From the NCBI RefSeq assembly GCF_003403315.2, contig NZ_CP048407.1:2046001-2110000 (forward strand): DNA of 64,000 nt, written 5' to 3'. The position numbers and the translations under genes were made by a program. Numbering within the stretch: position 1 is the stretch's first letter; the number at the start of each line of letters is the position of its first letter. This document shows, piece after piece, positions 14,144-53,222 of this stretch. The notes beneath the pieces are model-generated. The model had not been told where the DNA came from. It made no database searches and worked only from the letters and a program-made list of their open reading frames with translations. The DNA is from Thermaerobacter sp. PB12/4term. Lineage in GTDB: Bacteria; Bacillota; Sulfobacillia; Thermaerobacterales; Thermaerobacteraceae.

Positions 14144-14227
14144 GGCCAGGGCCGCCTCCGTCCACCGCCTGCGCCCGCACCTGATGGCCCACGCCGCCCC
14201 CCCCCGCCGCCGGCAGTAGCCTTACCT

Positions 14228-16989: not shown

Positions 16990-17023
16990 GCCGTCGCGAC
17001 CTCCTCTCGCCGACTCCATGCCT

Positions 17024-29922: not shown

Positions 29923-29945
29923 GTTCGTCCCCCTTCCGGTAAGGC

Positions 29946-29990
29946 AAGTAACCATTACTTAGAATACAGATAGTGTTAGTTGTATATCAA
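29946..29990 (-). promoter_or_regulatory. promoter and palindromic operator of the SBP56 gene
   Basis: On the minus strand TTGATA (complement of 29985-29990), an 18-bp spacer and TATTCT (complement of 29961-29966) form a sigma-A-like promoter. Directly downstream is the palindrome AAGTAA-CCA-TTACTT (29946-29960), in the transcription start region, where a repressor would block initiation. Confidence 0.65.
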
Positions 29991-37774: not shown

Positions 37775-37867
37775 CGCCTGTCCCCGCCCTTCCTCCCGTG
37801 CCGTGAAGGACCGGTTCCGGTGCCGGCGCCGGTGCCGGGATACCCTCCGGTGCGGGCCCGGGCCGGG

Positions 37868-38134
37868 TCAACCGGGCAACCCGTCGCCGGTTCCGCCCGC
37901 CGGCGGGGCCGGCGGGGTGGCAAGGCAGGTTCGTCCCTGGTACCCCACCTGCACGACCCGCCCGTCCTCGGCCAGGACGGGAACCGCCCGGCCCCCCGTC
38001 AGGGCCACCAGGCGCCGGAAGGCGTCGGGATCTGCCTCCACGTCGTACTCGCGGAACTCCTGGCCGCGAAACCACAACTCCTCCCGGAGCTCCCGGGTGT
38101 AGGGACACGTGCGGGTTCCGTAGAGTTCAAGCAT
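37868..38134 (-). CDS. glutaredoxin-like small protein
   Basis: An 88-aa thioredoxin-fold protein: LELYGTRTCPYTRELREELW with a monothiol CPYT site, then EYDVEADPDAFRRLVALTGG, RAVPVLAEDGRVVQVGYQGR and a second Cys in RTCLA. This pattern resembles the UXX-star group of glutaredoxin-like selenoproteins and their Cys homologues (from memory; not verifiable here). Its start overlaps the end of the double-SIS gene by 8 bp, so it is part of the cluster. It might handle a thiol or Cys step in hydrogenase assembly, which is conjecture. Confidence 0.75.
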   Translation of the reverse strand: MLELYGTRTCPYTRELREELWFRGQEFREYDVEADPDAFRRLVALTGGRAVPVLAEDGRVVQVGYQGRTCLATPPAPPAGGTGDGLPG

Positions 38135-39332
38135 CGCCGGTCACCACCGCCAGTCCCTCGCGGATCACGTGGTAGATGGATGCATGGACTTCCTGGATGC
38201 GAGGAACGTAGTCCGACGGCACCACGATGGCGATGTCCGCCAGCCCGCGCCGCACCACCTCGCCCCCGTCGTATCCCAAGAGCGCCAGCGTGAACAGCCC
38301 GCGCTTCCGCGCCTCCTCCAGGGCGAGGACGATGTTCCGTGAGTTGCCACTGGTCGAGATGGCCGCCACCACATCCCCGGGGCGGGCGTGGGCAATGACC
38401 TGGCGCAGGAAGATGACCTCCGCCCCCACGTCGTTGGCCAGGGCCGAGAGGATGGCGGGATCCATGGCCAGGGAGACGGCGGGCAGCGGGCGCCACCCCC
38501 GGGGCGGGAGGGTCATGTCCAGGGCCCAGTCGTTGGCGTCGGTGGCCGAGCCGCCGTTGCCCAGCAGGATCAGCTGGCCCCCAAGCTCCAGGCGCTCCGC
38601 CAGGGTCCGGACGGCCCGGGCGATGGCGTCGGCCTCGGCCTCCGCCACCTCGGCCCGCAGGCGGGCGGTATCCTCCGCCTTGGCCGTGATGGAGGCCGCC
38701 ACCTCTCCCACCACGGCCGATGTGTCCTGCCCCCGCGCCGACAGGAAGGGGTAGAGGAACCCCGCCGCGCCGGCATCGCCCCCCGTGGAGGCGTCCCGGT
38801 GCTCGAAGAACACATGCACCGTTTCCCACAGGGTGTGATAGAGGATCTCCAGCATTTCCTGGTGGACGAAGGGGTCGGGATCGGGCGGCGCCACCCCGTA
38901 GCCGCTTGCATCCTGGCCGCGGTGCTCCGGCCCCGGCAGGGCGGGCAGGGCGAAGCAGAAGGCCCCCTGCTGGCGCGCCCGCGCCAGCACGCCCGCCACC
39001 TCCGGGTCGCCCTCCGGAGGCCCGAATGCCATCACCATGTCCTCCGGGCGCAGGAGGGCCCCGAAGCCCGCCGGCAACACCGTCGACACGTCCACGGCCG
39101 GCAGCGCCCGCTTGCCTACGATCACCGGGTGGACGAACTCCACCGCCACATGCTGGGCGTCGGTGGCGTAGACGCCCCGCCCTGCAGCCAGCAGGCGCCC
39201 GCCGGCGAGGAAGCGGCCCGCCATCTCGCGGCAGGCGAGGGCCAGCTGTTCGGCCTCGCACGGGAAGAACCGTGCCGACACCTCCTTGCGGTACAGCAGG
39301 CGTTCCCTTACCCACCGTTCCGAGGGTGTCAT
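38127..39332 (-). CDS. protein with two SIS (sugar isomerase) domains, GmhA-like
   Basis: A 401-aa protein. The C-terminal half is a clear GmhA-like SIS domain (LILLGNGGSATDANDWALDM, HARPGDVVAAISTSGNSRNI, IAIVVPSDYVPRIQEVHASI). The N-terminal half shows a weaker SIS pattern (LAGGRLLAAGRGVYATDAQH, VAVEFVHPVIVGKRALPAVD), lacking the STSGNS motif. Phosphoheptose isomerases are normally about 190 aa with one domain. It lies between hypE and the glutaredoxin-like gene in the hydrogenase operon, with no LPS heptose genes nearby, so a role in lipopolysaccharide is unlikely. ATG at 39332 follows GGAGGGGTGGTC. Confidence 0.85.
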   Translation of the reverse strand: MTPSERWVRERLLYRKEVSARFFPCEAEQLALACREMAGRFLAGGRLLAAGRGVYATDAQHVAVEFVHPVIVGKRALPAVDVSTVLPAGFGALLRPEDMVMAFGPPEGDPEVAGVLARARQQGAFCFALPALPGPEHRGQDASGYGVAPPDPDPFVHQEMLEILYHTLWETVHVFFEHRDASTGGDAGAAGFLYPFLSARGQDTSAVVGEVAASITAKAEDTARLRAEVAEAEADAIARAVRTLAERLELGGQLILLGNGGSATDANDWALDMTLPPRGWRPLPAVSLAMDPAILSALANDVGAEVIFLRQVIAHARPGDVVAAISTSGNSRNIVLALEEARKRGLFTLALLGYDGGEVVRRGLADIAIVVPSDYVPRIQEVHASIYHVIREGLAVVTGDA

Positions 39333-39353
39333 GACCACCCCTCCGGCCCGCCA

Positions 39354-40397
39354 CTAGCAAATACGTGGCAAGGGGTCGCCCACCAGCATGTCCACCACGC
39401 GCGTTCCCCCGAACGACGAGCGGGCCAGGACCACGCCGGCGGGGTCCGAGCCGATCTCGCCGATGCGGGCCGCGTCCTCCCCGCCCGGCATGCCCTGCAG
39501 GGCTTCCAGGGCAGCCTCCGCGTGCTCGGGTGCCACCACGGCCACGAACTGCCCCTCATTGGCGATGTGCAGCGGGTCGAGCCCCAGGATCTCGCAGGCG
39601 CCCCGCACCGCGGGCCGCACGGGGATCGCCTCCTCGTCCAACATCACCGCCACCCGGGCCTGCCGTGCCAGCTCGTTCAGTGCCGTGGCCACGCCGCCCC
39701 GGGTGGGGTCCCGCATCCAGCGGATGCCGGGGCCCGCCGTCTCGATCATGGCGGCCACCAGCGGCCACAGCGGCCGGGTGTCGGAGACCAGGTCCGCCTC
39801 CAGGTCCAGCTCGCCGCGCGCCAGCAACACCGTGATGCCGTGGTCGCCGATGGGCCCGGAGAGCAGGATCTGATCCCCCGGCCGGACGGACGCGGCGGAA
39901 AGGGTGACGCGGGGGTCCACCACACCGATTCCGGCGGTGGTGATGTAGAGCCCGTCGGCCTTCCCGTGCTCCACCACCTTGGTGTCCCCGCCCACCACGT
40001 CCACGCCGGCGTTCCGGGCCGCTTCCGCCATGGCCTCGACTTCCTGCTCGAGAACGTCCGTGGGTAGCCCCGCTTCCACGATCCACGTGGCCACCAGTGC
40101 CAGCGGCCGGGCGCCGGCCACGGCCAGGTCGTTCACGGTGCCGTGGACCGACAGAGCGCCGATGGAGCCCCCCGGAAACCGCAGGGGTTTTACGACGAAG
40201 CTGTCCCCCGTCAGGGCCAGGCGCAAGCCCTGAGTGCCGGGGATTTCCACGTACGCCGCGTCCCCCAGTTCGGCCAGGGCTTCGTTAGCCAGGTAGGGGA
40301 CCAGTAGGCCCTCGATCAGCCGCCGGCTGGCCTTGCCCCCGGCCCCGTGGGCCAGCTCGATCCGAGGGTCCTGAAAGCGCACCCTGGTGGTCTCCAT
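39354..40397 (-). CDS. hypE: HypE carbamoyl dehydratase
   Basis: A 347-aa protein that converts the thiocarboxamide on its C-terminal Cys to thiocyanate and passes CN to the HypC-HypD complex. It begins with the typical ELAHGAGGKASRRLIEGLLV and has ALTGDSFVVKPLRFPGGSIG, SVHGTVNDLAVAGARPLAL, VVGGDTKVVEHGKADGLYI and MRDPTRGGVATALNELA. It ends in the required PRIC. ATG at 40397 is preceded by GGCGAGGAACCGCC; ATG at 40424 and the open frame to 40451 are alternatives. Confidence 0.96.
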   Translation of the reverse strand: METTRVRFQDPRIELAHGAGGKASRRLIEGLLVPYLANEALAELGDAAYVEIPGTQGLRLALTGDSFVVKPLRFPGGSIGALSVHGTVNDLAVAGARPLALVATWIVEAGLPTDVLEQEVEAMAEAARNAGVDVVGGDTKVVEHGKADGLYITTAGIGVVDPRVTLSAASVRPGDQILLSGPIGDHGITVLLARGELDLEADLVSDTRPLWPLVAAMIETAGPGIRWMRDPTRGGVATALNELARQARVAVMLDEEAIPVRPAVRGACEILGLDPLHIANEGQFVAVVAPEHAEAALEALQGMPGGEDAARIGEIGSDPAGVVLARSSFGGTRVVDMLVGDPLPRIC

Positions 40398-40447
40398 GGC
40401 GGTTCCTCGCCTCTCTTCTTCCATGACTGTTGACGTCCGGAGTTCCC

Positions 40448-41140
40448 TCACGCCAGCAGGTCCGGCAGCAAGGACCAGAGTATGAACCCACCCCAGGCGA
40501 GGCTGGCCAGGGCGGCGGCGGCGCGTACGGCGGCGTGCAGGAACAACCGGCGAGAAGTAACCGCCACCGCCGGCGCGGCCACGCAGAGGGTCATAAGGAA
40601 CATGCCGAGCAGCGTGCCAGCACCGAACAGGAGCAGCCAGAGCACGGCACCGCCCGGGTCCGGTGACGCCTGCAGGGCCATCACGGCCGCCGCCCCGCTG
40701 CCCCCGAGCCCGTGCGCCACCCCGAAGGCGAAGGTGACGCGCTGGCGGTTCTGCCCCATCCGGAACGGGTGCCGGTGGCCGGGCCGGTGGAAGTGGCCAT
40801 GGGTGATCTCCTCGTGCCGGTGGGTGGCGAAGTGCACGCCGCTGCGGGCCAGGCGCCGCAAGGTAACCAGCCCCAGGACGATCAGGAGCACACCCACGCC
40901 CGCCTCCGTGAGATGTTCGAAGCGCGCCGGGAGTTGCAGGCGGAAGACCACCAGCGGCAGCCCCACGGTCGCCACGGGAAGGAGGTGCCCCATCCCCCAG
41001 ACGAATCCGAGCCAGGCCGCCGGTCGCAGGCGCCGTTCTTCGGCGGCCAGGGTTGATACGGCCACCACATGGTCTGGCTCCAGGGCATGGCGCACCCCGA
41101 GGAATAGCGCCAGGCCCAGCAACGCCCAGCCGTCCATCAC
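40448..41140 (-). CDS. NicO/RcnA-type nickel or cobalt transporter
   Basis: A 230-aa membrane protein with about six helices. LGVRHALEPDHVVAVSTLAA carries the HX4DH metal motif of the NiCoT/NicO superfamily, with further motifs FVWGMGHLLPVATVGLP and FAFGVAHGLGGSGAAAVM. A His-rich cytoplasmic loop (HRHEEITHGHFHRPGHRHPF) lies in the middle. Position between hypD and hypE strongly suggests nickel supply for the hydrogenase. The start is at 41140 or at the Met one codon on. Confidence 0.88.
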   Translation of the reverse strand: MMDGWALLGLALFLGVRHALEPDHVVAVSTLAAEERRLRPAAWLGFVWGMGHLLPVATVGLPLVVFRLQLPARFEHLTEAGVGVLLIVLGLVTLRRLARSGVHFATHRHEEITHGHFHRPGHRHPFRMGQNRQRVTFAFGVAHGLGGSGAAAVMALQASPDPGGAVLWLLLFGAGTLLGMFLMTLCVAAPAVAVTSRRLFLHAAVRAAAALASLAWGGFILWSLLPDLLA

Positions 41141-41245
41141 GATACCTCCTTATGGGCCCGCACCTGCGCGCACTTCGCGATGCGCCTCAGCGGGCCGGGA
41201 CGGCCCGGCCGCCGGCGGCAGGACTCGCGTCCGCGGTCGCTCATT

Positions 41246-42358
41246 TCAGCCACCCACCGCCTGGCGGAGGTAGACATGATGGTAGTAGGCGGCGCACGCC
41301 CCTTCCGACGACACCATCAACGCGCCGACCGGGTGCTCCGGCGTGCACTCCTTGCCGAAGAGCTTGCACTGATGGGGTTTAAGGACGCCCTTTAGCACCT
41401 CGCCGCACTGGGCCGCCTTGGGATCGGTGACGCGCACGCCCTGTACACCGAAGCGGACTTCGGCGTCCCATTCGGCGAACTCCGGCCGCAGCTTGAGGGC
41501 CGACTGGGAGATGAACCCCAGGCCGCGCCACTCGAAGAAGGGGCGCACCTCAAACACCTCGGCCATGGCCTGCAGCGCCGCCCGGTTGCCCTCCCAGGGC
41601 ACGGCGCGGGCGTACTGGTTCTCCACCTCGGCCCGGCCCTCACGCAGTTGCCGGAGCAGCATGAGGATGGATTGTAGCAAGTCAAGGGGCTCGAAGCCCG
41701 AGATGACCACGGGCTTGCCGTACTGCTTGGGAATGAACTCGTAGGGCCGGGCACCGATGACAGTGGATACGTGGCCCGGCCCGATGAAACCATCCAGGCG
41801 CATGTCGGGAGACTCCAGGATGGCGCGGATGGCCGGCAGGATAAGGACGTGGTTCGAAAAGACGGTAAGGTTGCGCACGCCCAGTGACCGGGCCCGGAGC
41901 AGGGTCAGGGCCGTCGACGGGGCCGTAGTCTCGAAGCCGATGGCGAAAAAGACTACCTGGCGATCGGGGTTGTCCAGCGCCAGCTTGAGCGCGTCAAGGG
42001 GCGAGTACACCATGCGGATGTCGGCTCCGCGGGCTTTCAACTCCAGGGGCGTCCCCCGCCGGCCGGGCACCCGCATAACGTCCCCGAAAGCGGTGAAGAT
42101 GACCTCCGGCCGCTCGGCGATGGCGAGCCCGTCGTCCATCCGCCCCATGGGCAGCACGCAAACGGGGCAGCCCGGCCCGTGGACCAGCTCGATGTTGTCG
42201 GGCAGCAGGTTCTGCAACCCGAAACGGTAGATGGAGAAGGTGTGCCCGCCGCAGACCTCCATGATGCGATAGTGGCGATTGGGGTCCACAATGCGGCGAA
42301 TCTCATCCGCCGTCTTCCGGATCAGCTCCGGGTCACGAAACTCGTCGACGTACTTCAC
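41246..42358 (-). CDS. hypD: HypD maturation protein
   Basis: A 370-aa [4Fe-4S] protein on which the Fe(CN)2CO group is built together with HypC. Conserved segments: RIMEVCGGHTFSIYRFGLQ, ELVHGPGCPVCVLPMGRMDD, FFAIGFETTAPSTALTLLRA, GPGHVSTVIGARPYE, VVISGFEPLDLLQ and the C-terminal Cys-rich region (KLFGKECTPEHPVGALMVSS, EGACAAYYHH). Length normal. ATG at 42358 overlaps the stop of the second HypC-like gene. Confidence 0.97.
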   Translation of the reverse strand: MKYVDEFRDPELIRKTADEIRRIVDPNRHYRIMEVCGGHTFSIYRFGLQNLLPDNIELVHGPGCPVCVLPMGRMDDGLAIAERPEVIFTAFGDVMRVPGRRGTPLELKARGADIRMVYSPLDALKLALDNPDRQVVFFAIGFETTAPSTALTLLRARSLGVRNLTVFSNHVLILPAIRAILESPDMRLDGFIGPGHVSTVIGARPYEFIPKQYGKPVVISGFEPLDLLQSILMLLRQLREGRAEVENQYARAVPWEGNRAALQAMAEVFEVRPFFEWRGLGFISQSALKLRPEFAEWDAEVRFGVQGVRVTDPKAAQCGEVLKGVLKPHQCKLFGKECTPEHPVGALMVSSEGACAAYYHHVYLRQAVGG

Positions 42359-42624
42359 CGGTCCCCCTCCACCTTCCCCTCCGGCTTGCTGGCGCGCCCG
42401 ATGGCGATCCCGGCGTGGACCAGGAGGATGTCACCCGCGCGGGAGTCCGGGACGAAGTCGACGGCCACGGTCTCCCGACGGCCCGCTTCATCCTCGACAA
42501 GGGCCTCGGCGCCGCACACCTCCACCACCCGTACCGGCACCGCCACGTCGCCGCAGGTGATGCAGGTGCCCGCCTCCCCCGGGGTGCACACGTCCGGCGG
42601 CCTCCCGTTGGTCTCCACCGTCAT
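42355..42624 (-). CDS. second HypC/HupF-like small protein
   Basis: An 89-aa protein with the HypC beta-barrel pattern (TCITCGDVAVPVRVVEVCGA, then RAGDILLVHAGIAIGRA) but without the N-terminal MCxxxP of true HypC. Instead it has Cys residues in DVCTPG and TCITCGD. It overlaps hypC upstream (ATGA at 42621-42624) and hypD downstream by 4 bp. It may be a variant chaperone for one subunit or assembly step, or a partner of HypD. Confidence 0.82.
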   Translation of the reverse strand: MTVETNGRPPDVCTPGEAGTCITCGDVAVPVRVVEVCGAEALVEDEAGRRETVAVDFVPDSRAGDILLVHAGIAIGRASKPEGKVEGDR

Positions 42625-42941
42625 GAGGCCCCCGCTCCTTGCCCGGCCGCACCGGGCGCAGGGCCGCCCGTGCCGCCGAAGGCGTAGCCCCGGACCTCCT
42701 GCAGGGCTTCCTCGGCCTCGCCCAGCATGGCCAGGAGGCGCAACTGGTCCCGGGCCTGTTCCTCGCTGATCTTGCTCATGGCAAAGCCCACGTGGATCAG
42801 TACCCAGTCATCAGGTTGCAGCCCCTCCTGCCGCAGCAGGTCCACGTTGATCTTGCGCCGTACCCCCGACACGTCCACCACGGCGTAGTGGGGCTCGTCC
42901 TCCAGCAGCTGGACGATCCGCCCCGGAATCGCCAGGCACAT
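42621..42941 (-). CDS. hypC: HypC hydrogenase maturation chaperone
   Basis: A 106-aa protein starting MCLAIPGRIVQLLEDEP, with the essential Cys2, then VDVSGVRRKINVDLLRQEGL and DDWVLIHVGFAMSKISEEQA. HypC binds HypD and the precursor of the large subunit. A 25-residue Gly/Ala-rich tail is extra. ATG at 42941 lies after AAGGAGAGGGAGAGCGGCC. Confidence 0.95.
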   Translation of the reverse strand: MCLAIPGRIVQLLEDEPHYAVVDVSGVRRKINVDLLRQEGLQPDDWVLIHVGFAMSKISEEQARDQLRLLAMLGEAEEALQEVRGYAFGGTGGPAPGAAGQGAGAS

Positions 42942-43059
42942 GGCCGCTCTCCCTCTCCTTTCCCCGTGTTTCCTCGTCTTTCCCCGTTGTCGCCGCCCCC
43001 GTCCTCGCCCGTTTCCGCCGTCACCCGGCTCCCCCTCCCCCGGGGACGGGGTAATCCCG

Positions 43060-44178
43060 TCAACAGGTGGCGCCCTCCTCACACGCAGCCAGCCGCCAGA
43101 GCACGACCCGGTTGTTGCCGGAGTCGGCGATGGCCAGCAGGTCACCGTGGCCCCAGAGGCCGTAAGGCCAGCAGAGCGTGTCCCGGCCCACCACCTGCCA
43201 GCGGTTCTCGCCCGAGCCTTCGAAATCGGCCTGCCCGATGACGTGGGTCGCGGCAAGGTACGCGCCCCGCCGCGGGGGGCCGGGGAAGAGGAGCACCCGG
43301 TTGTTGGCGGTGTCGGCCACCGCTAGGTACCCGGCGCACAGGGCCACGCCGTAAGGAAACCGGAGGCGGCGCGGCCCCTGGGGGATGTCCGGGAGTTCGA
43401 AGGCCCGGTCGAAATCTTCCTGGCCCAGGACCAGGTTCGCCGCGCGATCCGCCACCGGCGGCGGTGTGAACCCCAGCACCCGGTGATTGCCGGCGTCGGC
43501 CACATAGAGAGTGATACCGTCGCCGGCCAGGGCATGGGGCCACCGGAAGCTATCCGGGCCCACGCCCCGGCCCCGGTTCTCCTCGCCGCTAGCCGCATCA
43601 GGCTGGCCGAGCACGAGGTCCGGGGGCCGCAGGCCCTCGGGAATTGCCCGCCATCCCAACACGCGGCGATTTCCAGTGTCGGCCACGTAGAACCACCCAT
43701 CGACGAAGGCGAACCCGTAGGGCCAACGCAATCCCGAGGCCGGCGTCGCGCCACCGCCGTTGGGAGCGGTACCGTCCAAGTCGGATTGGCCGATCACCGC
43801 GTCCGGCGGGCACCCGCTGTCTTCGGGCAGGCCGTCCCATACCAGGAGGCGGTGATGCCATGCGTCGGCCACCACCAGGCAGCCTTCCACCACCGCCACG
43901 GCCGTGGGAAGGTGGAGCAGGCCGGGCCCCTCCGTTTCGAAATCCCCGTGCCCCAGCACCACGTCCGCGGGCTGGTGGTCGACCTCCGGCAGGTCGTGCC
44001 AGATGAGGACCCGGTGATTGCCGGTGTCCGCCACGACCAGCACCCGGTCGTCCAGGTACACGCCCCGGGGAGCGTAGAGGGCCACCCTGCTGGGGCGGGC
44101 CGGCGGCAGGGCAAGGCCGCCCGGCGCCGGCGCTCCCAACCAGCACACGGGCTCCGCCGTCAGTGCGGGCGCACCCAT
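43060..44178 (-). CDS. six-bladed NHL-repeat protein
   Basis: A 372-aa protein of about six NHL repeats, each ending in a variant of one motif: VVADTGNHRVLIW, VVADAWHHRLLVW, YVADTGNRRVLGW, YVADAGNHRVLGF, AVADTANNRVLLF and AIADSGNNRVVLW. Between blades a GQxDF-like motif recurs (VIGQSDLD, VLGQPD, VLGQEDF, VIGQADF). A six-bladed beta-propeller is expected, probably a protein-binding scaffold. No signal peptide, so cytosolic like the hydrogenase. ATG at 44178 has GGAGGGG upstream and overlaps the end of the NifU-Rieske gene by 19 bp. As far as I know, NHL genes occur near actinobacterial group 2a hydrogenases. Confidence 0.88.
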   Translation of the reverse strand: MGAPALTAEPVCWLGAPAPGGLALPPARPSRVALYAPRGVYLDDRVLVVADTGNHRVLIWHDLPEVDHQPADVVLGHGDFETEGPGLLHLPTAVAVVEGCLVVADAWHHRLLVWDGLPEDSGCPPDAVIGQSDLDGTAPNGGGATPASGLRWPYGFAFVDGWFYVADTGNRRVLGWRAIPEGLRPPDLVLGQPDAASGEENRGRGVGPDSFRWPHALAGDGITLYVADAGNHRVLGFTPPPVADRAANLVLGQEDFDRAFELPDIPQGPRRLRFPYGVALCAGYLAVADTANNRVLLFPGPPRRGAYLAATHVIGQADFEGSGENRWQVVGRDTLCWPYGLWGHGDLLAIADSGNNRVVLWRLAACEEGATC

Positions 44179-45062
44179 ACCCGCTGCCCCTCCACCCGCA
44201 CCGGGAACGGTTCCAACTGCACGTGGGGAGCGGTCAGGCACTCTCCCGTCGTCAGGTCGAAGCGGAAACCGTGCCACGGGCACGTGATCACGGTCCCGTC
44301 CACGGTGCCCTCCTCCAGGGGCATGCCCATGTGGGGACACTGGTTGCGGAAGGCCATGACCCGGGACCCCAGGCGCACCAGCAGCACGTCGTGCTCGCCC
44401 GCCCGGAACCGGACGGGCTTGCCCTCCGCCAGGTTCGTCACCGGCGGCCCTTCCACCCATCCCTTCTCTTCGAGCACCCCGGACTGCGGCCCCACGAAGC
44501 CCGCCACCGGCTCGGCTCCCACCACCACGATCTCCCGGACCTCGGGTACCCGGGCCTTGACAACTTCCTCCACCCCGTCTCGCAGGGTCCGGGCAGAGAG
44601 GGAGCAGCCGGCACACGCACCGTGTAGCCGGACGTAAACGACATCGCCCTCCACCTTGACCAGGTCCACATCGCCGCCGTGAGAGCGCATGTACGGGCGC
44701 ACCTCTTCCAGGGCGGCGGCCACCCGCGCCGTCAGGTCGGGCCGCACGATGCCGTGCAAGTGGAACAGGGCGTAGATCGCCGGATCTTCCACAACCCGGA
44801 AGAGCAGCTCCTTGCCGGCCTCCGTGGCCCGCAACACCCGAACGAGCCGGCGGAGGGCGTGCCGGTGAAAGGCCTCGATGGCTTCCTTGAGCTCCATCGC
44901 CTTCTGGCGGGCCTCGTCCGGCAACTCCCGGATGGCCGCCAGGGCACGGTCGACGGCAGCGGCCAGGGACTCGAAGTCGCCTTCGGCAGAGCCGTGTCCG
45001 GCCGCGCCTTGCCCAATGCTGTCTTCCCTGCGCGTCTGCTGCTGGGGGAGCGCGATGGTCAA
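44160..45062 (-). CDS. NifU-domain and Rieske-domain fusion protein
   Basis: A 300-aa protein. Residues about 95-185 form a NifU C-terminal domain (VRPYMRSHGGDVDLVKVEGD and CAGCSLSARTLRDGVEE, with the CxxC that holds an Fe-S cluster). Residues about 200-300 form a Rieske [2Fe-2S] domain with ligands in NQCPHMGMPLEEG and TCPWHGFRFDLTTG. It could serve as electron acceptor for the hydrogenase or as cluster carrier. Its start overlaps the 125-aa gene by 4 bp. Rieske proteins of this type accompany Huc-type hydrogenases (from memory). Confidence 0.92.
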   Translation of the reverse strand: MTIALPQQQTRREDSIGQGAAGHGSAEGDFESLAAAVDRALAAIRELPDEARQKAMELKEAIEAFHRHALRRLVRVLRATEAGKELLFRVVEDPAIYALFHLHGIVRPDLTARVAAALEEVRPYMRSHGGDVDLVKVEGDVVYVRLHGACAGCSLSARTLRDGVEEVVKARVPEVREIVVVGAEPVAGFVGPQSGVLEEKGWVEGPPVTNLAEGKPVRFRAGEHDVLLVRLGSRVMAFRNQCPHMGMPLEEGTVDGTVITCPWHGFRFDLTTGECLTAPHVQLEPFPVRVEGQRVWVRPH

Positions 45063-45436
45063 TCACCCCCGAAAGCCAGCCCTCGTTCGAGGACTTCTTC
45101 GGTCTTTGTCTGGAGGAGGTTCTCGAAGACCCTCCTGGCCATGTACTGGAGAATCTCGCCGACGCTTGCCCCGATGGGAAGGTCTTCCTCGCCGTCCCAA
45201 CGCCGGTCAGCCAGCGCTTGGAGCACCAGACACGCCCCGCCCGGCGTGTCCAGCAGGCAGTCCCGGAAGAAGGCTTCGACGAACCGTCCCAGCCAGATCC
45301 CCTCCCCATGGGGATCGGCGCGCAACCGTTGCAGGGCGGGAGCCACGCCCCCGTTGCGCTGGATGATGCGCTCGCTGAAACGGTCGACGGCCATGGCCAG
45401 AAGCATGTCCACGTACTGGCGTTCATGGGGTTCCAC
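45059..45436 (-). CDS. hypothetical 125-aa hydrogenase-cluster protein
   Basis: A helical protein I do not recognise: ERQYVDMLLAMAVDRFSERI, GIWLGRFVEAFFRDCLLDTP, EILQYMARRVFENLLQTKTE. It has one Cys pair (DCLLDTPGGACLV) and no membrane segment. The start lies within the end of the TPR gene and the stop overlaps the NifU-Rieske gene, so it is tightly coupled and likely acts with them. Confidence 0.75.
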   Translation of the reverse strand: MEPHERQYVDMLLAMAVDRFSERIIQRNGGVAPALQRLRADPHGEGIWLGRFVEAFFRDCLLDTPGGACLVLQALADRRWDGEEDLPIGASVGEILQYMARRVFENLLQTKTEEVLERGLAFGGD

Positions 45437-46673
45437 GGGTCATCCCACCCCCTTCTTCCGCGGGTGCCGGCGTGGCCTGCCGCCTCCGCAACCGCCCGAT
45501 GTCCTCCAGGACCGCCTCCACGGCCGCGGCCGCCCCGGTGTCCCCGTGCTCCTGGAACAGGCGGCGTGCCTCCTGCAGGCGCGGCTCCGCCTGGGCCAGG
45601 TGGCCCAGATGAGCCAGCGCGTTCCCCTGGTTGGCCAGCACCCGGGCATAACCCAGGGGGTCTTCCCCGGGCCGCCGCACGGCCAGGACCTGGTCGTAGA
45701 GCGCCACCGCCTCCCGCAGGTTGTTTGCCGGATGGGCGCTCGGCACGTGCTGCAGGGCGTTGGCCAGGTTCAGGGTCGCGCTTGCCCAGAGCTCGGGATG
45801 GGTGTCCCGCTGAAACACCCGCAGTGCCTCCCGCAGGGCCTGCACGGCTACTGCCGCGCGCAAGCGTGCCGCGCGGTCCTCCGGCGGCATCGCCAGGTAG
45901 GCCAGGGCGAGGTTCATCTGGGCCATGGCGTAGGCCTCCGGGTGGGTGTCCCGCCGGAAGACCTTGAGCGCCTCCTGGTAGCATCGGGCCGCTTCCAGCA
46001 ACGGTCCCTTCCTGCCGCCGGCCAGCCCCTGGTAGGCGGAACCCAATTGGAACCAGAGTTCCGCCCTGACCTCGGGGAAGTCGGAATCCTCCAAGAGCCG
46101 GATCGCCCTGCGATAGCCCTCAATGGCCTCGTCCTCCCGGCCCGCCTCCACGTGGCACAATGCCGCCCACTCGGCATAGAGGCGTGCCGCCAGCACGGGC
46201 GAGACCTCCTCCGCGGCGCCCGCCGCCGTCCGGAGCCGCTCCAGCCCGGCGGCCCGGTCGCCCCGCTGCAGGGCGGCGTAGGCCTGGGTGGCCAGGAGGA
46301 AGGCCGCCAGCTCGCCGTCGGCGCCCTCGGGATCGGGCGGCGCGGGGCACAGCCCCACCCGCCAGGCCACGGCGTCCAGTAGAGGCAGCCACTCCGGACC
46401 CAGACGCTCCCCGGCCCAGGCGTAGACCTCCGGTTCCGGCCGGAGGACGAACCGGTTGAAGATGCCTTCCGGGCCTTCCGGCAGCCGCCGGATTAGGGCG
46501 TCGCCGTCCTCACCCGCCAGGGCCCGGGCGAAGAACTCCCACCCGGCGGGCCACGGCTGGGGCAGCCACCCCCGCAGCATCCCGGCCACCAGTTCCTCGC
46601 CCCGCGGAACGGGAGGCAGGACCAGCAGCCCCGCCACCCCCGGGAAAACGCCGATGGGCTGCGGTCGCAACAC
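45423..46673 (-). CDS. TPR-repeat protein of the hydrogenase cluster
   Basis: A 416-aa protein. About five to six tetratricopeptide-like repeats from residue 125 on (AFLLATQAYAALQRGDRAAG, LYAEWAALCHVEAGREDEAI, LWFQLGSAYQGLAGGRKGPL, AMAQMNLALAYLAMPPEDRA, SATLNLANALQHVPSAHPA, VLANQGNALAHLGHLAQAEP). The N-terminal 120 residues are Trp/Pro-rich and of unknown family. TPR proteins build complexes; here probably an assembly or scaffold factor. GTG at 46673 is preceded by GGAAGGTGGGACGGGTCC. Confidence 0.85.
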   Translation of the reverse strand: MLRPQPIGVFPGVAGLLVLPPVPRGEELVAGMLRGWLPQPWPAGWEFFARALAGEDGDALIRRLPEGPEGIFNRFVLRPEPEVYAWAGERLGPEWLPLLDAVAWRVGLCPAPPDPEGADGELAAFLLATQAYAALQRGDRAAGLERLRTAAGAAEEVSPVLAARLYAEWAALCHVEAGREDEAIEGYRRAIRLLEDSDFPEVRAELWFQLGSAYQGLAGGRKGPLLEAARCYQEALKVFRRDTHPEAYAMAQMNLALAYLAMPPEDRAARLRAAVAVQALREALRVFQRDTHPELWASATLNLANALQHVPSAHPANNLREAVALYDQVLAVRRPGEDPLGYARVLANQGNALAHLGHLAQAEPRLQEARRLFQEHGDTGAAAAVEAVLEDIGRLRRRQATPAPAEEGGGMTRGTP

Positions 46674-46701
46674 GGACCCGTCCCACCTTCCTCACGGCAG
46701 G

Positions 46702-47061
46702 CTAGCGGCGGGGAGGCTGGGCGCCGGCAACGCGGCCCGCGGCCGGTTTCACCGGCGTCCCGCTCCCCGGCTCGCGTCCGGCGAGGGGAATGCGCAGGGC
46801 CCCCGCCTCGTCGTCCCAGAAAGCCTGCCGCGGCCCGGGCGGCGTCCCTTCCGGCAGGAACTCCCGGACCAGGACGCTGCGGTCACCGCGGGCATTGCGC
46901 CACTTCAAGAGCAGCCCGCCGGCTCCCGGATGGCTGACCGGCAGGAGCCACAACTCCCCCCGCCTCACCAGGACAATGGCCGTGCCCGCCGGAAACCTGC
47001 CGGCCGCCTCCGCCGGCAGGTGGAGATACCCGCCGTCCGTGATCTCAACCCACACGCTCAT
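46702..47061 (-). CDS. hypothetical 119-aa hydrogenase-cluster protein
   Basis: A small beta-rich protein: VWVEITDGGYLHLPAEAAGR, GTAIVLVRRGELWLLPVSHP, LLLKWRNARGDRSVLVREFL. The first 50 residues look vaguely like an AbrB-type beta domain, but I see no firm match. A Pro/Gly-rich tail follows residue 95. Its start lies within the end of the protease gene (overlap 17 bp), so it is part of the operon. Confidence 0.7.
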   Translation of the reverse strand: MSVWVEITDGGYLHLPAEAAGRFPAGTAIVLVRRGELWLLPVSHPGAGGLLLKWRNARGDRSVLVREFLPEGTPPGPRQAFWDDEAGALRIPLAGREPGSGTPVKPAAGRVAGAQPPRR

Positions 47062-47512
47062 CTCTCCCGAGGCGCCGCACGAGATCGGCCGCCAGGCGTT
47101 CCATGGCCTCCTGGACCGCCGGGGAGAGCCCCATCCCGGGCTCGAGGCTCGCCGCTTCGATGAGGAACACCGTCACCTTCCGCGGGAAGCGGTCTTTCAG
47201 CAGCCACCGCCCGAAGGCGATGGCGTGGTCCCACCGGAAGTCGTGCAAGTTGATGGCCGTGAGCGGCGGTGTTTCCACTTCCTCGCCCGGCACCTCGAAG
47301 ATGGTGCCCGGCGGGGCGCCGGTGCGGCAGGCGTCGACGATGATCAGCTCCGTCGCCCCGTCGATCTGAAAAGCGACGTCCATCCCCGCGGTGCCGCCGT
47401 CCGCCAGGCGCACGCCGGGGGGCGGTCCCAGTTCCCACAGGCGGCGGATCAGCAGCGGGCCGACCCCGTCGTCGCTCCGGAGCAAGTTGCCGCAACCGAT
47501 GATCACCGTCAC
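47045..47512 (-). CDS. hydrogenase maturation endopeptidase (HycI/HupD family)
   Basis: A 155-aa protease that removes the C-terminal tail of the large subunit after nickel insertion. Conserved: GCGNLLRSDDGVGPLLIRRL with the first acidic nickel-binding residue, GGTAGMDVAFQIDGATELII, and DACRTGAPPGTIFEV. The C-terminal His (LHDFRW) fits the third ligand. GTG at 47512 follows GGGGGTGTCCGGGC. The gene lies directly after the large subunit, its substrate. Confidence 0.93.
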   Translation of the reverse strand: MTVIIGCGNLLRSDDGVGPLLIRRLWELGPPPGVRLADGGTAGMDVAFQIDGATELIIVDACRTGAPPGTIFEVPGEEVETPPLTAINLHDFRWDHAIAFGRWLLKDRFPRKVTVFLIEAASLEPGMGLSPAVQEAMERLAADLVRRLGRDERVG

Positions 47513-47566
47513 GCCCGGACACCCCCTGCCTCACCGGCGCCAGCGCCCCTGCCCCCCCGGGCGGGC

Positions 47567-49204
47567 TCAGGGCGCACCGGGTCCCACCGTGAAGCGGGCC
47601 AGTTCCTTGTGCGTCCGGGCATCGTACGCATGAACGGTGCACACCAGGCAGGAGTCGTAGCTCTGGGCGATGTGAGCCAGTTCCACGGGATCCTCCGGAT
47701 TGAGTACCGTGGCGCCGATCATCGCCGTCTCGATGGGACCGCGGTTGCCGTGGCGGTCGCGGGGCCCGATGTTCCAGGCCGTCGGGGTGATCACCTGATA
47801 GTTCTCGATCTTGCCGTCCTTGATCTGAATCCAGTCGGCCAGGGCTCCTCGCGCCGCCTCCGTGGCGCCGAAACCGCGCCCCTCTGGCAGCTCCTGCGGC
47901 TTGATGTAGAACTTCTCGTTCAAGTCCACCTGGGACAGCCACTGGCGCACCAGCCGGTAGTACTTGGCCGCCTCGTGCATACGGGCCAGCACGCGGACCA
48001 TGACGCTGGGGCCGAGTTCCCGCACGATGTTGAGGAACAGGGGATCGTAATCCTGCCACGGCTCGGCGCCCGGCCGGCCCGCGATCACCTGGCGAGCCAG
48101 GGGGCCCGCTTCCAGCGAAACCTCCTCGCCCCCGGGTAGCATGTACCGCGGTGCCTTCGCCCACGTGTACTTGTCCTGCTTCTTGCCCTCCGCCGGATCG
48201 ACGGGCTCCGTCACCCCTTCGAAGGGGTGCAACGAGGCGCTGCCCCGGAAGAAGGAGTGGGTGTGGTCCTCCCGCACCCGCGCCTGTTCGAAGTCGTGGA
48301 AGTCCTCGCCGTCGTATACGCCCGCCCGGGAGATCAGCGCCGCGTTGCGCCCCTCGATGTTCGGGTACCGGTACTTCTCAGGATGGAAGTAGGTGCCCAT
48401 GGCCAGGTACCGCCCCGGGCCGGCGCCGTACTTGTCCAGGCCGATCTCCAGGCAGTAGCGGATGAAGAGGCCCAGGTCCGAGTCCCGGTGCTGGGGCTTC
48501 TCATCCAGCCAGCGCAACACGTCGTCCCAGGTCTCGTTCTCCAGCCAGCGGTCCACGGAGCAGCCCAGCCAGACCCCTTCCAGCCACGTCTCCCGGTAAT
48601 ACTCCAGGATCGAGATGGAACGCGTGATGTCCGACAGCGTGGGGCCGCACATCACACCCCCCGGGACCATAAAGCTGGAGTGGGGCCACTGGCCGCCGAA
48701 AATGGCGTAGATCTCCACGGGCTTGGCGGACGTAACCACGCCGACCTCGTAGCTGGTCCCGGTGAAGGGAGCCCACCGGCGGGCCACTTCTTCATACAAC
48801 TTGGCGCGGGAATAGTTTCGGTGCGTCAGGCCGATGGCGAACAGGGCGTAGAACCAGCGCGGGATGCTTTGCAGCGTCTCGCAGGCCTGGGCGATGTTGC
48901 GGATCAAGGTCGCGTTGGGCGGCACCTCGGTCTGCCAGGCGGTGTCCAGGGCGTAGACGGCCTTGTACAGGTGGCTGCCACCGCAAATCCCGCAAATGCG
49001 CGGGGTCACGATCAGGCCGGCCTGCGGGTCCTTTCCTTTTAATATGATCTCGAACCCGCGGAACATGGTGGCTTCCGTCCAGGCGTCCACCACCACGCCG
49101 TCCTCGATGGCCACGCGGACGTCCAGGTCCCCTTCGACACGCCCCAGGGCGTGCACGTGCACATCCATCTTGGCACCCTGCGTACCCACGGAGTTTGCGC
49201 TCAT
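47567..49204 (-). CDS. hupL: [NiFe]-hydrogenase large subunit, group 2a (Huc-like)
   Basis: A 545-aa catalytic subunit. The N-terminal nickel motif is RICGICGGSH (L1) and the C-terminal one is DSCLVCTVH (L2), giving the four Cys ligands of the Ni-Fe centre. After the His there are 20 more residues (from AYDARTHKEL), the tail cut off by the endopeptidase encoded next. HALGRVEGDLDVRV at the start and SYDSCLVCTVHAYD at the end resemble group 2a enzymes, to my memory, which oxidise H2 at low levels in the cytosol. ATG at 49204 is preceded by GGCGGGGGAAAGAC. Confidence 0.95.
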   Translation of the reverse strand: MSANSVGTQGAKMDVHVHALGRVEGDLDVRVAIEDGVVVDAWTEATMFRGFEIILKGKDPQAGLIVTPRICGICGGSHLYKAVYALDTAWQTEVPPNATLIRNIAQACETLQSIPRWFYALFAIGLTHRNYSRAKLYEEVARRWAPFTGTSYEVGVVTSAKPVEIYAIFGGQWPHSSFMVPGGVMCGPTLSDITRSISILEYYRETWLEGVWLGCSVDRWLENETWDDVLRWLDEKPQHRDSDLGLFIRYCLEIGLDKYGAGPGRYLAMGTYFHPEKYRYPNIEGRNAALISRAGVYDGEDFHDFEQARVREDHTHSFFRGSASLHPFEGVTEPVDPAEGKKQDKYTWAKAPRYMLPGGEEVSLEAGPLARQVIAGRPGAEPWQDYDPLFLNIVRELGPSVMVRVLARMHEAAKYYRLVRQWLSQVDLNEKFYIKPQELPEGRGFGATEAARGALADWIQIKDGKIENYQVITPTAWNIGPRDRHGNRGPIETAMIGATVLNPEDPVELAHIAQSYDSCLVCTVHAYDARTHKELARFTVGPGAP

Positions 49205-49322
49205 GTCTTTCCCCCGCCTTCGTGTCAGATCCAGTCAGTCACCGGCCTCCATCCCGGTTCCCGGTGGTGGGCGGAGGGTTTCGCCCACCCGGATCACGCA
49301 CCGCAGATCGCGCCCGGCAAGA

Positions 49323-50294
49323 TCAAGGCACGAACATCTCCTCCCGGGCCCACTTCGGCGCCGCCGCCCGGGCAACGGCCGCATGCAGCGAGTAGCTGAG
49401 AGGATCGCTGCCCTGAGGAACCTCCCGGGGAATGGCGCCGAAGACCTTCTGGGTCTTGAACACGGTGCCCGGGGCCAGGTCGAAGAAGGGGAACTGGGGC
49501 TCGGTGCAGCCGATGCACGGCATGCCCGCCCGCGTCTTGGACGACTGCCGGTTCCAGAGGATGCGGTTGCAGGGCGAGTGGGTCAGCGGGCCGCGGCAAC
49601 CATATTCGTAGAACAGGCACCCTTTGCGCGTGCCCTGGCCGAATTCCTCGACCGGCTCCTTCCATTCGAAGTACTGGACGCGGGTGCAGCCGGTCTGGGT
49701 GAAGGTCTTGAAGAAGGTCTGCGGGCGCTGCAGGTCGTCCAGCAGCACGTCCTGGGCCCGCCCGGTGGCGATGGCGACGAGGATCTGCGTCACCCAGTCG
49801 GGATGGGCGGGACAGCCCGGGATGTTGATCACCGGCAGGCCCGCCCGGGAGCGGAAGTCAGGGCCCAGGAACCCGCCCCGCTTCTCTTTGTGGAACTGCA
49901 ATCCCGTGGACTCGCTGGGGTTGGGCGGCGTCGCGGGGATGCCTCCCCAGCAGGCGCAGTCCCCGACGGCCACCACGTACTGGGCGACCCCGGCCATCTC
50001 CCGCAGCCAGTCCTTCATGGGACGGCCCATGAACGTGTTGTAACGGCCTGTACCGTTGGGCCCCTGGATGACCGTTCCCTCGAAGACCAGGATGTCCAGC
50101 GGGATCTCTTCCCGCAGGACCGCTTCCAGGACCCGGCGCGCTTCCTCGCCGAACTCCATGGAGATGGAGTGGTGATAGAGGATGCGGATGCCGAAGTCCG
50201 TGACCAGGTCGACGACCGTCGGCTCCTCGGCGTTGAGGAACGACTGGGTGTTGCCGTTGCACGCCCCGCCGTGCAGCCAGACGAGGTTGGCCAC
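49323..50294 (-). CDS. hupS: [NiFe]-hydrogenase small subunit, group 2a (Huc-like)
   Basis: A 323-aa Fe-S subunit. It begins directly with VANLVWLHGGACNGNTQSFL, with no twin-arginine signal, so the enzyme is cytosolic. Proximal-cluster ligands: Cys in ACNGN (the usual second Cys is Asn), GDCACWGG and IPGCPAHP, consistent with a 3-Cys proximal cluster as in Huc. Medial and distal ligands lie in TGCTRVQYFEW, GCLFYEYGCRGP, CNRILWN and GMPCIGCTEP. The open frame extends to 50372, but GTG at 50294 has GGAGGTGG at 6-8 nt and starts at the first beta strand. Confidence 0.94.
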   Translation of the reverse strand: MANLVWLHGGACNGNTQSFLNAEEPTVVDLVTDFGIRILYHHSISMEFGEEARRVLEAVLREEIPLDILVFEGTVIQGPNGTGRYNTFMGRPMKDWLREMAGVAQYVVAVGDCACWGGIPATPPNPSESTGLQFHKEKRGGFLGPDFRSRAGLPVINIPGCPAHPDWVTQILVAIATGRAQDVLLDDLQRPQTFFKTFTQTGCTRVQYFEWKEPVEEFGQGTRKGCLFYEYGCRGPLTHSPCNRILWNRQSSKTRAGMPCIGCTEPQFPFFDLAPGTVFKTQKVFGAIPREVPQGSDPLSYSLHAAVARAAAPKWAREEMFVP

Positions 50295-50400
50295 TCCCAA
50301 CCACCTCCGTACCTGCCTCGTGCCGCCCGGCGAGGAGGCTCGCCGGGTCCAGTCTCCTCCCATCAGCGACATTCCCCAGGGGCATGTGCCAGGGGCCCCC

Positions 50401-51114
50401 TCAGGGGCGCCCGCCCTCTTCGCCCCCCGGCGCGCCCGGAACCGCCGCCGGCGTGCGGCCGGCAGGAGCGTGTTCTTCCAGCCGGGAGAGCCATTCCGCC
50501 ATGCCGGCGCCCGTCCGTGCGGAAACCTCCAGAACGGGAAGGTCGGGCCGCACCTGTTGCAGCGCCTCGTAGAAGGCGTGCCGGTCGAAGCCTACCGCCT
50601 CGGCCAGGTCGACCTTGGTCACGATGACCAGGTCGGCACCCAGGACGATGGTGGGGTATTTCAGAGGCTTGTCTTCGCCTTCCGCGACCGAGAAGAGGAC
50701 CACCCGCAGGCTCTCGCCCAGGTCGTAGCTGGCCGGGCAGACCAGGTTGCCTACGTTCTCGATGAAGAGGAAGTCCAGCTCGGCGAGATCCCAGCCCTCC
50801 AGTGCCCGGCCGACCATCTCGGCCTCCAGGTGGCACACCGTGCCGGTGGTGATCTGCCGGACGGGCGCCCCGCTCTCCTGCAGGCGCCGGCCGTCGTTGT
50901 CGGTGGCCAGGTCGCCGACCAGCGCCGCCACGCGATACCGGTCCCGCAGGCGGATCAGCGTCTCCCTCAGCAGGGTGGTCTTGCCCGCTCCGGGGCTGGA
51001 CACCAGGTTGACCGTGTAGACACCGGCCTGCCGGAACCGCTCCCGCAGTTCCCGGGCCAGGATATCGTTCTTCTTGAGCACGTTTTGCCGGAGCTCAACG
51101 ATCCGGGGCGCCAA
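50401..51114 (-). CDS. hypB: HypB GTPase, nickel insertion
   Basis: A 237-aa GTPase with P-loop SSPGAGKTTLLRETL, the metal-binding segment TTGTVCHLEAEMV, FIENVGNLVCPASYDLGE and VTKVDLAEAVGFD (NKxD variant). It works with HypA to insert nickel. There is no His-rich N-terminal nickel store. TTG at 51114, preceded by GGAGGGGGAAGGGC, is the likely start and lies within the end of hypA (20-bp overlap); the open frame to 51345 is the hypA shadow. It lies between hypA and the small subunit. Confidence 0.95.
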   Translation of the reverse strand: MAPRIVELRQNVLKKNDILARELRERFRQAGVYTVNLVSSPGAGKTTLLRETLIRLRDRYRVAALVGDLATDNDGRRLQESGAPVRQITTGTVCHLEAEMVGRALEGWDLAELDFLFIENVGNLVCPASYDLGESLRVVLFSVAEGEDKPLKYPTIVLGADLVIVTKVDLAEAVGFDRHAFYEALQQVRPDLPVLEVSARTGAGMAEWLSRLEEHAPAGRTPAAVPGAPGGEEGGRP

Positions 51115-51469
51115 GCCCTTCCCCCTCCTCTCCCTCCAAGGCGAACAGCTCCAGTTCCCGTCCGTGGACGATCTCCGCAGTTCGCGTCCCGCACTCAGGG
51201 CACGCCATGGGCAGGGGCTCGGGTAACCGGCGGGGCTGCCGGCAACGCGGGCAGAAGATTTCGACCGGGACCTCTTCGATGGCGAGCCGCGCACCTTCCA
51301 GGGGGGTACCGGCGGTAACGATGTCGAAACAGAACAAAAGGGCATCCTTGACCACGCCCGCCAGAACGCCCAGGCGCACGTGTACGGCGCGGACCCGCGT
51401 CAAGCCCCGGCGCCGGGCCTCTTCCGCCGCCAGCTCGACCAGGTTCTGGGCGATGGACAGCTCGTGCAT
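51095..51469 (-). CDS. hypA: HypA nickel metallochaperone
   Basis: A 124-aa protein starting MHELSIAQNLVELAAEEARR, with the nickel-ligand His2, and two zinc-binding pairs: CPRCRQP and CPECGT. The segment VRLGVLAGVVKDALLFCFDI is typical. It delivers nickel with HypB. It begins 4 bp after the end of the DUF1641 gene. Confidence 0.96.
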   Translation of the reverse strand: MHELSIAQNLVELAAEEARRRGLTRVRAVHVRLGVLAGVVKDALLFCFDIVTAGTPLEGARLAIEEVPVEIFCPRCRQPRRLPEPLPMACPECGTRTAEIVHGRELELFALEGEEGEGLGAPDR

Positions 51470-51472
51470 CGG

Positions 51473-52081
51473 TCAGAGTAGCCGCGCGCCATTCCTCTGG
51501 GCGCCATGTCTTTGCGCGCCGTTTCCCTGCAGGCCATTCCCCTGGGCGCCATTCCCCCGCTCGGCCAGTTCCCGCGAGAAGCTCTGGGCAAAGGCGAGGG
51601 CGAACTGGAGGGCCGGCTGCACGTCAGCGTCTCCCAGCGCGCGCAACAAACCGACCAGGCCGACGCGCTTGGTCTCCGCCCGGGAGACCTGTTCTGACGC
51701 CTCGACCATGGCCCGGGCCATATGGCCCACCACCGCCACCGAACGGGTGTCCAGGACGGCGGACCTGAACAGGGCCTGGACCTGCGGCGATTCGATGACC
51801 TCTTTGACCCCAGACAGGGCGCTGGAAAGGTCTTCCCACGGTGCCCGCGCCTGTCCGGCGCCGAGGTTCTTCCTTAACGTGATGATCGTTTCGTTGATGG
51901 AATCAGCGATCTCCGGCCCGCGGCGCAGGAATTGCTCGACCATTTCCAGGAGGAAAACCAGTTGGTCTAGCTTATCGAGCAGCCGCAGAAGTAGCTCCAT
52001 TGTGCGGGGATCCGCGAGCCGTTCCATGAGCTGCTGCTCCAGGGGGTGTTCCTCTCGCGTGCGCTCAGCGACCGCCGCCAT
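51473..52081 (-). CDS. DUF1641 family protein, first gene of the hydrogenase operon
   Basis: A 202-aa helical protein of the DUF1641 type, found next to hydrogenase and formate dehydrogenase genes; its function is not known. Conserved-looking parts are TMELLLRLLDKLDQLVFLLE, RRGPEIADSINETIITLRK and LLRALGDADVQPALQFALAF. The C-terminal 25 residues are a degenerate repeat of NGAQ/NGLQ-type units. ATG at 52081 follows AAGGAGGGGGATC; the open frame to 52183 reads into the promoter region. Confidence 0.85.
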   Translation of the reverse strand: MAAVAERTREEHPLEQQLMERLADPRTMELLLRLLDKLDQLVFLLEMVEQFLRRGPEIADSINETIITLRKNLGAGQARAPWEDLSSALSGVKEVIESPQVQALFRSAVLDTRSVAVVGHMARAMVEASEQVSRAETKRVGLVGLLRALGDADVQPALQFALAFAQSFSRELAERGNGAQGNGLQGNGAQRHGAQRNGARLL

Positions 52082-52410
52082 GATCCCCCTCCTTGGCGGG
52101 GTGAGCGTCCTGATGACGGCCCCAGGTCCGTCACCGTCCACGATCACCCAGCCGCTACCGATGTCGATACCATCTAGCCACACGCAACACGAAGAAGCGG
52201 TGTCGGGAGGAAAGTAATCCGCCGTATTCAGTTGTCAAAGGGCATTGTGTAAGAGATGGAACCGATCTACATAGGGTATGCATTTTAGGCCATAGTACTA
52301 TTGACGTAGGTCATTGTCAATGGCTTCCTGGCCCTAGACTCAAAAGCGTGGGGCTGAGAAGGGGAAGGCGGTTGGCGAGCCAAAGGATTGGTAGCCAGTG
52401 TCAGACCCCG
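52082..52410. other. 329-bp divergent region at the right border of the hydrogenase island
   Basis: It holds the two minus-strand promoters (52211-52320) and the 5' leader of DUF1641. On the plus strand TTGTCA near 52314 and TAGACT near 52335 are weak promoter-like hexamers for the paralogue pseudogene. No RNA gene was seen. Confidence 0.5.
52211..52320 (-). promoter_or_regulatory. tandem promoters of the hydrogenase operon with inverted repeat
   Basis: Distal promoter (minus): TTGACA (complement of 52315-52320), 17-bp spacer, TACTAT (complement of 52292-52297). Proximal promoter: TTGACA (complement of 52233-52238), 16-bp spacer, TACTTT (complement of 52211-52216). The distal -35 is part of an inverted repeat ATTGAC-N10-GTCAAT that could bind a regulator. 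The region is markedly AT-richer than the genes. Confidence 0.72.
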
Positions 52411-53222
52411 ATGGGTGGTGTTCGTATGCGAGCGCTGGGTGCGTCTCGCCTAAGAACTCGCGCCGTAGTATTGGCTGCAGTGCTCGCTGTCGTCGTCGCG
52501 TGCCCTGAGGCGGCCGCCGCCGAAACGGTGACCGGGGTTCCGCCCGAGGTGGAGCAGGCGGCACGGAACGATCTGCCCCGCTGGGTGGGTTCCCTGGCCG
52601 CCGATCCCCACTCCGACGCTCATGGAGTCGGCGATCCTACCCGCTATTTCCTCGACGACGGCGTTCGCCTCCACCGCATCAGCCGATTCGCCCGGCAAGG
52701 CGGTGTGGCCACCACCCTGGATGCGCTCACGGAAGCCCAGGACGTGTACCGGTTCGTCATTGACCTGGACGGCCGCTGGGGATCGCCGAGGTGCAGCGCC
52801 AGGGCGGCCAGTGGGTGATCGTGGGCGTCGGCTACGACGGTTCCGCCGAGACTGCCGGCAACGGCGGCACCGCCACGAATGCGGACTTCCTATGCCGCCT
52901 GGCCAAGGCAACGGCCGTCCTGGCCGAGAACGGGCTCACGGCCGACGTGCGCTACATCGACGATCCGCCCCTCGTCATCGGCCTGGCTGGCAGCGACGGC
53001 CAGAGGAGCCTGATCGTCAGTCTGGGGGACCACCTTGGCATGACCGACGGTCAGGCCGCCACGCTGGAGGACGTGAGCGCCAGGATCCACGAGGCGGCGG
53101 CCATGGACGCCCAGGCGCCGCGGGGGCCCGCATCCCCCCTGGTCGTGGGCCTGATCGGCGTTGCGGTGCTGGGCGCCGTCGTCGCCGGCGGCTACATCCG
53201 GCTGCACCGCGCCATAGGCTAG
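52411..53222 (+). pseudogene. secreted, membrane-anchored protein of unknown family (copy 2), frameshifted
   Basis: A paralogue of the 34236-35069 gene over its whole length: signal peptide (VVLAAVLAVVVACPEAAAAE), VPPEVEQAARNDLPRWVGSL, VATTLDALTEAQDVYRFVID, then after a frameshift QRQGGQWVIVGVGYDGSAET and the C-terminal anchor LIGVAVLGAVVAGGYIRLHR. Aligning the DNA shows a 4-bp loss near 52773: CTGGACGG is followed by 8 nt before TGGGGATC in copy 1 but only 4 nt in copy 2. The start is ATG 52411 or 52426; neither has a strong ribosome binding site. Confidence 0.85.

Follow-up and report, generated by a model that had tools for sequence, protein, structure and literature searches.

The question raised by this locus is which class of [NiFe] hydrogenase it encodes in a thermophilic, Bacillota-like host, and what such an enzyme would do there. 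The window (the whole 64,000-nucleotide stretch of Thermaerobacter sp. PB12/4term analysed here) contains a 16.9-kb Huc/hyp cluster (35409-52320), with all genes on the minus strand from 52081 down to 35516. A reading of the sequence alone had proposed a Huc-like group 2a hydrogenase for 49323-52081; this stretch does cover HucS, HypB, HypA and HucM, but HucL lies outside it, at 47567-49204. Read along the minus strand, the gene order is hucM-hypA-hypB-hucS-hucL-protease-hyp-TPR-hyp-NifU/Rieske-NHL-hyp genes, and a promoter-like site sits directly on the right boundary of the cluster:

52292..52320, minus strand, promoter-like site TTGACA-17-TACTAT upstream of hucM (10/12 consensus matches, 0.2 expected)
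51473..52081, minus strand, hucM, DUF1641 membrane adaptor/scaffold subunit, 202 aa (PDB 7uus_Q; Pfam DUF1641)
51095..51469, minus strand, hypA, nickel metallochaperone (TIGR00100, above cut-off)
50401..51114, minus strand, hypB, nickel-insertion GTPase (TIGR00073, E 4.6e-79)
49323..50294, minus strand, hucS, small subunit (PDB 7utd_B, E 3e-169; ligand columns)
47567..49204, minus strand, hucL, large subunit (PDB 7uus_A, E 2.6e-252; L1/L2 motif columns)
47045..47512, minus strand, hucD, C-terminal maturation protease (TIGR00072, E 5.8e-41; PF01750)
46702..47061, minus strand, hypo1, conserved hypothetical of Huc loci (no Pfam family; order kept in most compared Huc loci)
45423..46673, minus strand, TPR protein (PF13424; syntenic)
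45059..45436, minus strand, hypo2, conserved hypothetical of Huc loci (no Pfam family; syntenic)
44160..45062, minus strand, NifU-Rieske fusion of the HucE type (PF01106, 3.9e-25; PF00355, 8.7e-20)
43060..44178, minus strand, NHL-repeat protein (PF01436, 8.5e-22)
42621..42941, minus strand, hypC (PF01455, 2.1e-24)
42355..42624, minus strand, second HypC/HupF-like protein (PF01455, 4.6e-11)
41246..42358, minus strand, hypD (PF01924, 1.2e-152)
40448..41140, minus strand, nickel-transporter-like membrane protein (hydrophobic, His-rich loop, judged from sequence; syntenic in L059)
39354..40451, minus strand, hypE (TIGR02124, 1.3e-120)
38127..39338, minus strand, SIS-domain protein (PF13580, 3.3e-21)
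37868..38134, minus strand, UXX-star-type glutaredoxin-like protein, Cys form (NF041212, E 5.1e-18, 0.9 bits below cut-off)
35516..37774, minus strand, hypF, carbamoyltransferase (TIGR00143, 7.7e-222)

The Rieske-NifU, NHL and TPR genes that had been read alongside the hydrogenase are all present by Pfam matches, and the maturation set described as complete is indeed a full Hyp set (NCBIfam and Pfam matches). Inspection of the start region of hypB points to the TTG at 51114 as its likely start, with the ORF proper extending from 51345. The nickel-transporter-like protein matched no NCBIfam family over threshold, and an Rfam search of the window returned no RNA gene and no riboswitch. Several other Huc loci (L004, L005, L148 and L016) also encode a member of the UXX-star glutaredoxin-like (seleno)protein family in its Cys form.

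On sequence grounds, the enzyme is a group 2a [NiFe] hydrogenase of the Huc type, in agreement with the original assignment, which is borne out by structure matches, ligand columns and trees. The best structure matches of both subunits are those of Mycobacterium smegmatis Huc (7utd/7uur/7uus), with 71% identity for HucS (E 3e-169) and 68% for HucL (E 2.6e-252), values far beyond chance; the next-best matches are group 1 enzymes (E 3e-39 for HucS and 1e-60 for HucL), and identities to group 1 and 3d references are 24-32%. All NCBIfam hits to HucS and HucL fall below cut-off, and NCBIfam holds no 2a-specific model. HucL carries the Ni-Fe-binding Cys motifs L1 (RICGICGG) and L2 (DSCLVCTVH) and extends C-terminally beyond the latter, with a matching protease gene present. 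In a quick large-subunit tree with long outgroup branches (references: E. coli Hya/Hyb, four C. necator hydrogenases and M. smegmatis HucL), the window's protein groups with M. smegmatis HucL within the 2a clade, to the exclusion of HoxC (2b) and of the group 1 and 3 references.

The longer small-subunit ORF (49323-50372, minus strand), which contains GACNGN, opens with an ATG at 50372 that is probably not the real start of HucS. Because HucS homologues from Bacillota start at residue 26-27 of this ORF and GGAGGTGG lies in a fitting position just upstream, the GTG at 50294 is the likely start, giving a HucS of 323 aa. This GTG stands directly before ANLVWLHGG, and the longer ORF is signal-free by eye, in line with the claim that the small subunit lacks a Tat signal.

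We aligned the Fe-S ligands of the window's HucS with those of 80 group 2a relatives and references (groups 1d, 2b, 3d and 1h among them). The proximal site has three Cys and Asn41, a column that is Asn in 79/80 relatives and Cys in the group 1d, 2b and 3d references; the Cys-x-x-Asn seen in GACNGN is thus real, and a normal four-Cys set is absent. The spelling itself is not a special feature, with ACSGNT in 65 relatives and ACNGNT in 14, the conserved point being the Asn. The peculiarity is not restricted to the proximal site: the distal site has three Cys and Gln226 (vs His in group 1 and 2b), and the medial site adds Ser278-Lys279 to its three Cys, at a position occupied by Pro in group 1 and by Cys in 1h or 2b. 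All three sites therefore combine three Cys with a fourth residue that is neither Cys nor His, in letters identical to those of M. smegmatis Huc, the clusters of which are three [3Fe-4S] (PMC10017518); by analogy with that enzyme, we infer three [3Fe-4S] clusters in the window's HucS. The residues with described roles in menaquinone contact (PMC10017518) are kept in the window and in 79-80/80 relatives, with M. smegmatis HucS Lys212, Tyr229 and Tyr301 corresponding to Lys238, Tyr255 and Tyr327, and D-His166 of HucL to His175. A single one of the 80 relatives, an Alicyclobacillaceae HucS (L003:10001-10969), has His in place of Gln in the distal-site column and might bind a [4Fe-4S] distal cluster.

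The third subunit, HucM, was overlooked in the sequence-only reading, even though its gene starts exactly at the end of the stretch described there (ATG at 52081, with AGGAGGGGG upstream as ribosome site). Pfam gives only DUF1641 for this ORF (PF07849, E 1.4e-8, 34.9 bits vs a cut-off of 21). In a single-sequence search it matches HucM 7uus_Q (E 1.1e-5), a match also obtained with a profile built from the DUF1641 proteins encoded at Huc loci (E 3.2e-23), and a fragment of M. smegmatis HucM narrowly exceeds the DUF1641 cut-off; by sequence, ORF 51473-52081 is HucM. It is the only DUF1641 protein in the genome. HucM-like genes are found near nearly all Huc genes outside a Proteobacteria-associated clade, within which none was detected with the query used. 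Identifying the DUF1641 gene as hucM provides a simple marker for complete Huc complexes. A Foldseek search with the HucM monomer model, a low-confidence model (pTM 0.33) of a protein that works as a tetramer, gave no match. The size of HucM homologues (L002-L081) differs between phyla, spanning about 156-400 aa, with about 180-205 in Bacilli and Thermaerobacter, and the length of the HucM stalk may vary accordingly.

The identification also ties HucM to other menaquinone-coupling proteins, since the HucM profile matches YjlC (2.5e-10), an NDH-2 membrane coupling protein (4.3e-10) and ForE1 (1.6e-6) (DUF1641; PDB 8rqz, 9snk and 9pxk). The partners of these proteins are formate dehydrogenase and NDH-2, whereas that of HucM is a hydrogenase. 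The formate dehydrogenase partnered by ForE1 depends on it to bind and reduce menaquinone (PMC8808070), and because of this dependence and the profile matches, a common adaptor role is likely; together they suggest one family of menaquinone adaptors. We tentatively extend this to the idea that DUF1641 proteins are general menaquinone adaptors for soluble dehydrogenases (hydrogenase, NDH-2 and formate dehydrogenase) and that the Huc found here is heat-stable. A literature search of limited journal coverage found no paper connecting HucM, YjlC, the NDH-2 coupling protein and ForE1; the depositors of recent DUF1641 structures may already have proposed such a shared role.

With respect to the host, a search of the genome (one contig of 2,820,915 bases) recovered one [NiFe] large subunit, i.e., a single hydrogenase, together with three haem-copper oxidases, one bd oxidase and the classical menaquinone gene menB; there was no match to PF02621 of the futalosine route. 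Subunits, ligands, quinone-site residues, operon, and menaquinone and oxidase genes are all observed, and we consider it very probable that the genes of 35409-52320 specify an uptake [NiFe] hydrogenase of the Huc type (group 2a) that feeds menaquinone, along with HucM and a full maturation kit. In such a system, cytosolic HucL would split H2, HucS would pass the electrons via three [3Fe-4S] clusters to menaquinone that HucM would fetch from the membrane, and the aerobic terminal oxidases would then oxidise the menaquinol. From the M. smegmatis enzyme we carry over a predicted insensitivity to O2, a high affinity and a role of HucM in moving quinone, and it is plausible that this Thermaerobacter strain scavenges trace H2. 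It is quite possible, instead, that the enzyme mainly recycles or consumes elevated H2 (from compost, hydrothermal sources or fermentation) during growth rather than atmospheric H2: one relative, 95% identical, comes from compost, and the authors of that genome mention expressed [NiFe] hydrogenases; Thermaerobacter are aerobic heterotrophs; and Kyrpidia uses its group 2a enzymes for growth on high H2, the whole-cell Ks for H2 of Kyrpidia spormannii being a modest 327 nM (PMC7248562). The ligand set and quinone site, on the other hand, match those of an enzyme active at sub-atmospheric H2. Sequence does not reveal affinity, and one use of H2 does not preclude the other.

The distribution of the cluster is uneven, with HucS being found in 1/4 Thermaerobacter genomes, that of the window, and absent from three congeners. 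The DNA flanking 35409-52320 on both sides is found in all three, with the cluster absent between. These absences could be read as a recent horizontal acquisition unique to the window's strain, as could the tree of HucS and HucL, in which the window falls in a Bacillota clade (bootstrap 100) with the compost genome ZC4RG37 nearest, then Bacilli and only then a same-class Sulfobacillia-like pair, to which the window and its sister genus are less close than to Bacilli, and the presence of one same-class copy on a plasmid-sized contig of 84,933 bp. We consider such an acquisition unlikely, and within the genus it is largely rejected by what remains in congener G138: the cluster site there holds transposase and other genes, along with a hypF scrap encoding VWTGHQVPVNDGGISLGQAAL (L139:9395-9458; 29 C-terminal codons near IS-type transposase genes) that matches HypF residues 718-746 at 79%, and HypF and HypD searches of this genome found no intact hypF and no hypD. 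Furthermore, a sister-genus genome has the cluster, with 95% identity in HucS and about 83-85% in DNA. Because the scrap remains at the same site, these sequences are most simply explained by a common ancestor that carried the cluster and a later loss in G138, which left a deletion scar; G136 and G137 show no trace of it. The Huc cluster is thus an optional trait, lost by at least one relative, and not a new system, while an older transfer into the family is possible. The same-class copy on the 84,933-bp contig (L147, G112:C2), which is plausibly a plasmid, has hucM-hypA-hypB inverted.

That the enzyme is instead a sensory (2b-like) or other group 2 hydrogenase, as its cytosolic nature without a Tat signal might suggest given that 2b enzymes share it, is highly improbable and is refuted by tree placement and ligands, since identity to regulatory HoxB/HoxC is 34-39%, these fall apart from it in the tree, the 2b proximal site has four Cys, and HucL has the C-terminal extension and matching protease gene. 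Another same-class genome (G041, L085) encodes a group 2 hydrogenase that shares ~51-54% identity with the enzyme of the window; its proximal residue is Asn and its distal one His, and it branches outside 2a, possibly as a 2e/2f-like or Kyrpidia-outlier type.

Compared with Huc of M. smegmatis (HucSLM; PMC10017518), the Thermaerobacter enzyme shares Fe-S ligand columns, menaquinone contacts, L1/L2 and HucM, with HucM diverged and its tail Gly/Asn/Gln-rich, unlike that of M. smegmatis. The sequence-only description of the group as best known from Actinobacteria and Cyanobacteria has to be qualified, since group 2a is already published for Bacillota and is not new there: it is listed in 19 Firmicutes genomes, Kyrpidia and Sulfobacillus included (PMC7784904), and in Hydrogenibacillus and Carbobacillus (PMC10215811), and high H2 affinity has been measured in Kyrpidia. 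Gene order likewise matches published Bacillota Huc loci. The Parageobacillus thermoglucosidasius 23.6 locus (operons 2-4; PMC12976888) has the order DUF1641-HypA-HypB-small-large-protease-hyp in common with the window, as well as TPR-hyp-NifU-NHL and HypC-HypD-HypE-glutaredoxin/GST-like; the window additionally has a nickel-transporter-like gene, a second hypC and a SIS gene, and its genome is without a second [NiFe] hydrogenase. The same study (PMC12976888) describes an induction of the Parageobacillus large subunit that exceeds 900-fold when growth is close to zero. TPR and NHL genes, as in the window, also accompany the group 2a enzymes of Kyrpidia spormannii and K. tusciae (PMC7248562), but Kyrpidia has two such enzymes and grows autotrophically. 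The same literature search found no paper on Huc in Thermaerobacter, a deep-branching thermophilic genus that joins the likely aerobic H2 oxidisers, with Huc as an optional trait. Since the growth range of T. marianensis is 50-80 deg C (PMC3035304), the Huc of its close relative could be sturdier for structural and applied work, and the thermophile complex, if indeed heat-stable, would be suited to structure determination and fuel-cell use.

Two stretches flanking the Huc/hyp cluster (34300-35051 and 52471-53203) are ~73% identical and in the same orientation; no Pfam family was found for their ORFs, and the congeners carry related copies at the cluster site. Elsewhere in the window, we observe kdp potassium-transport genes with a KdpD-like sensor kinase (11438-18724, judged from sequence) and a gene of the selenium-binding protein SBP56 family (28486-29955; Pfam E 1e-174), which includes methanethiol oxidases.
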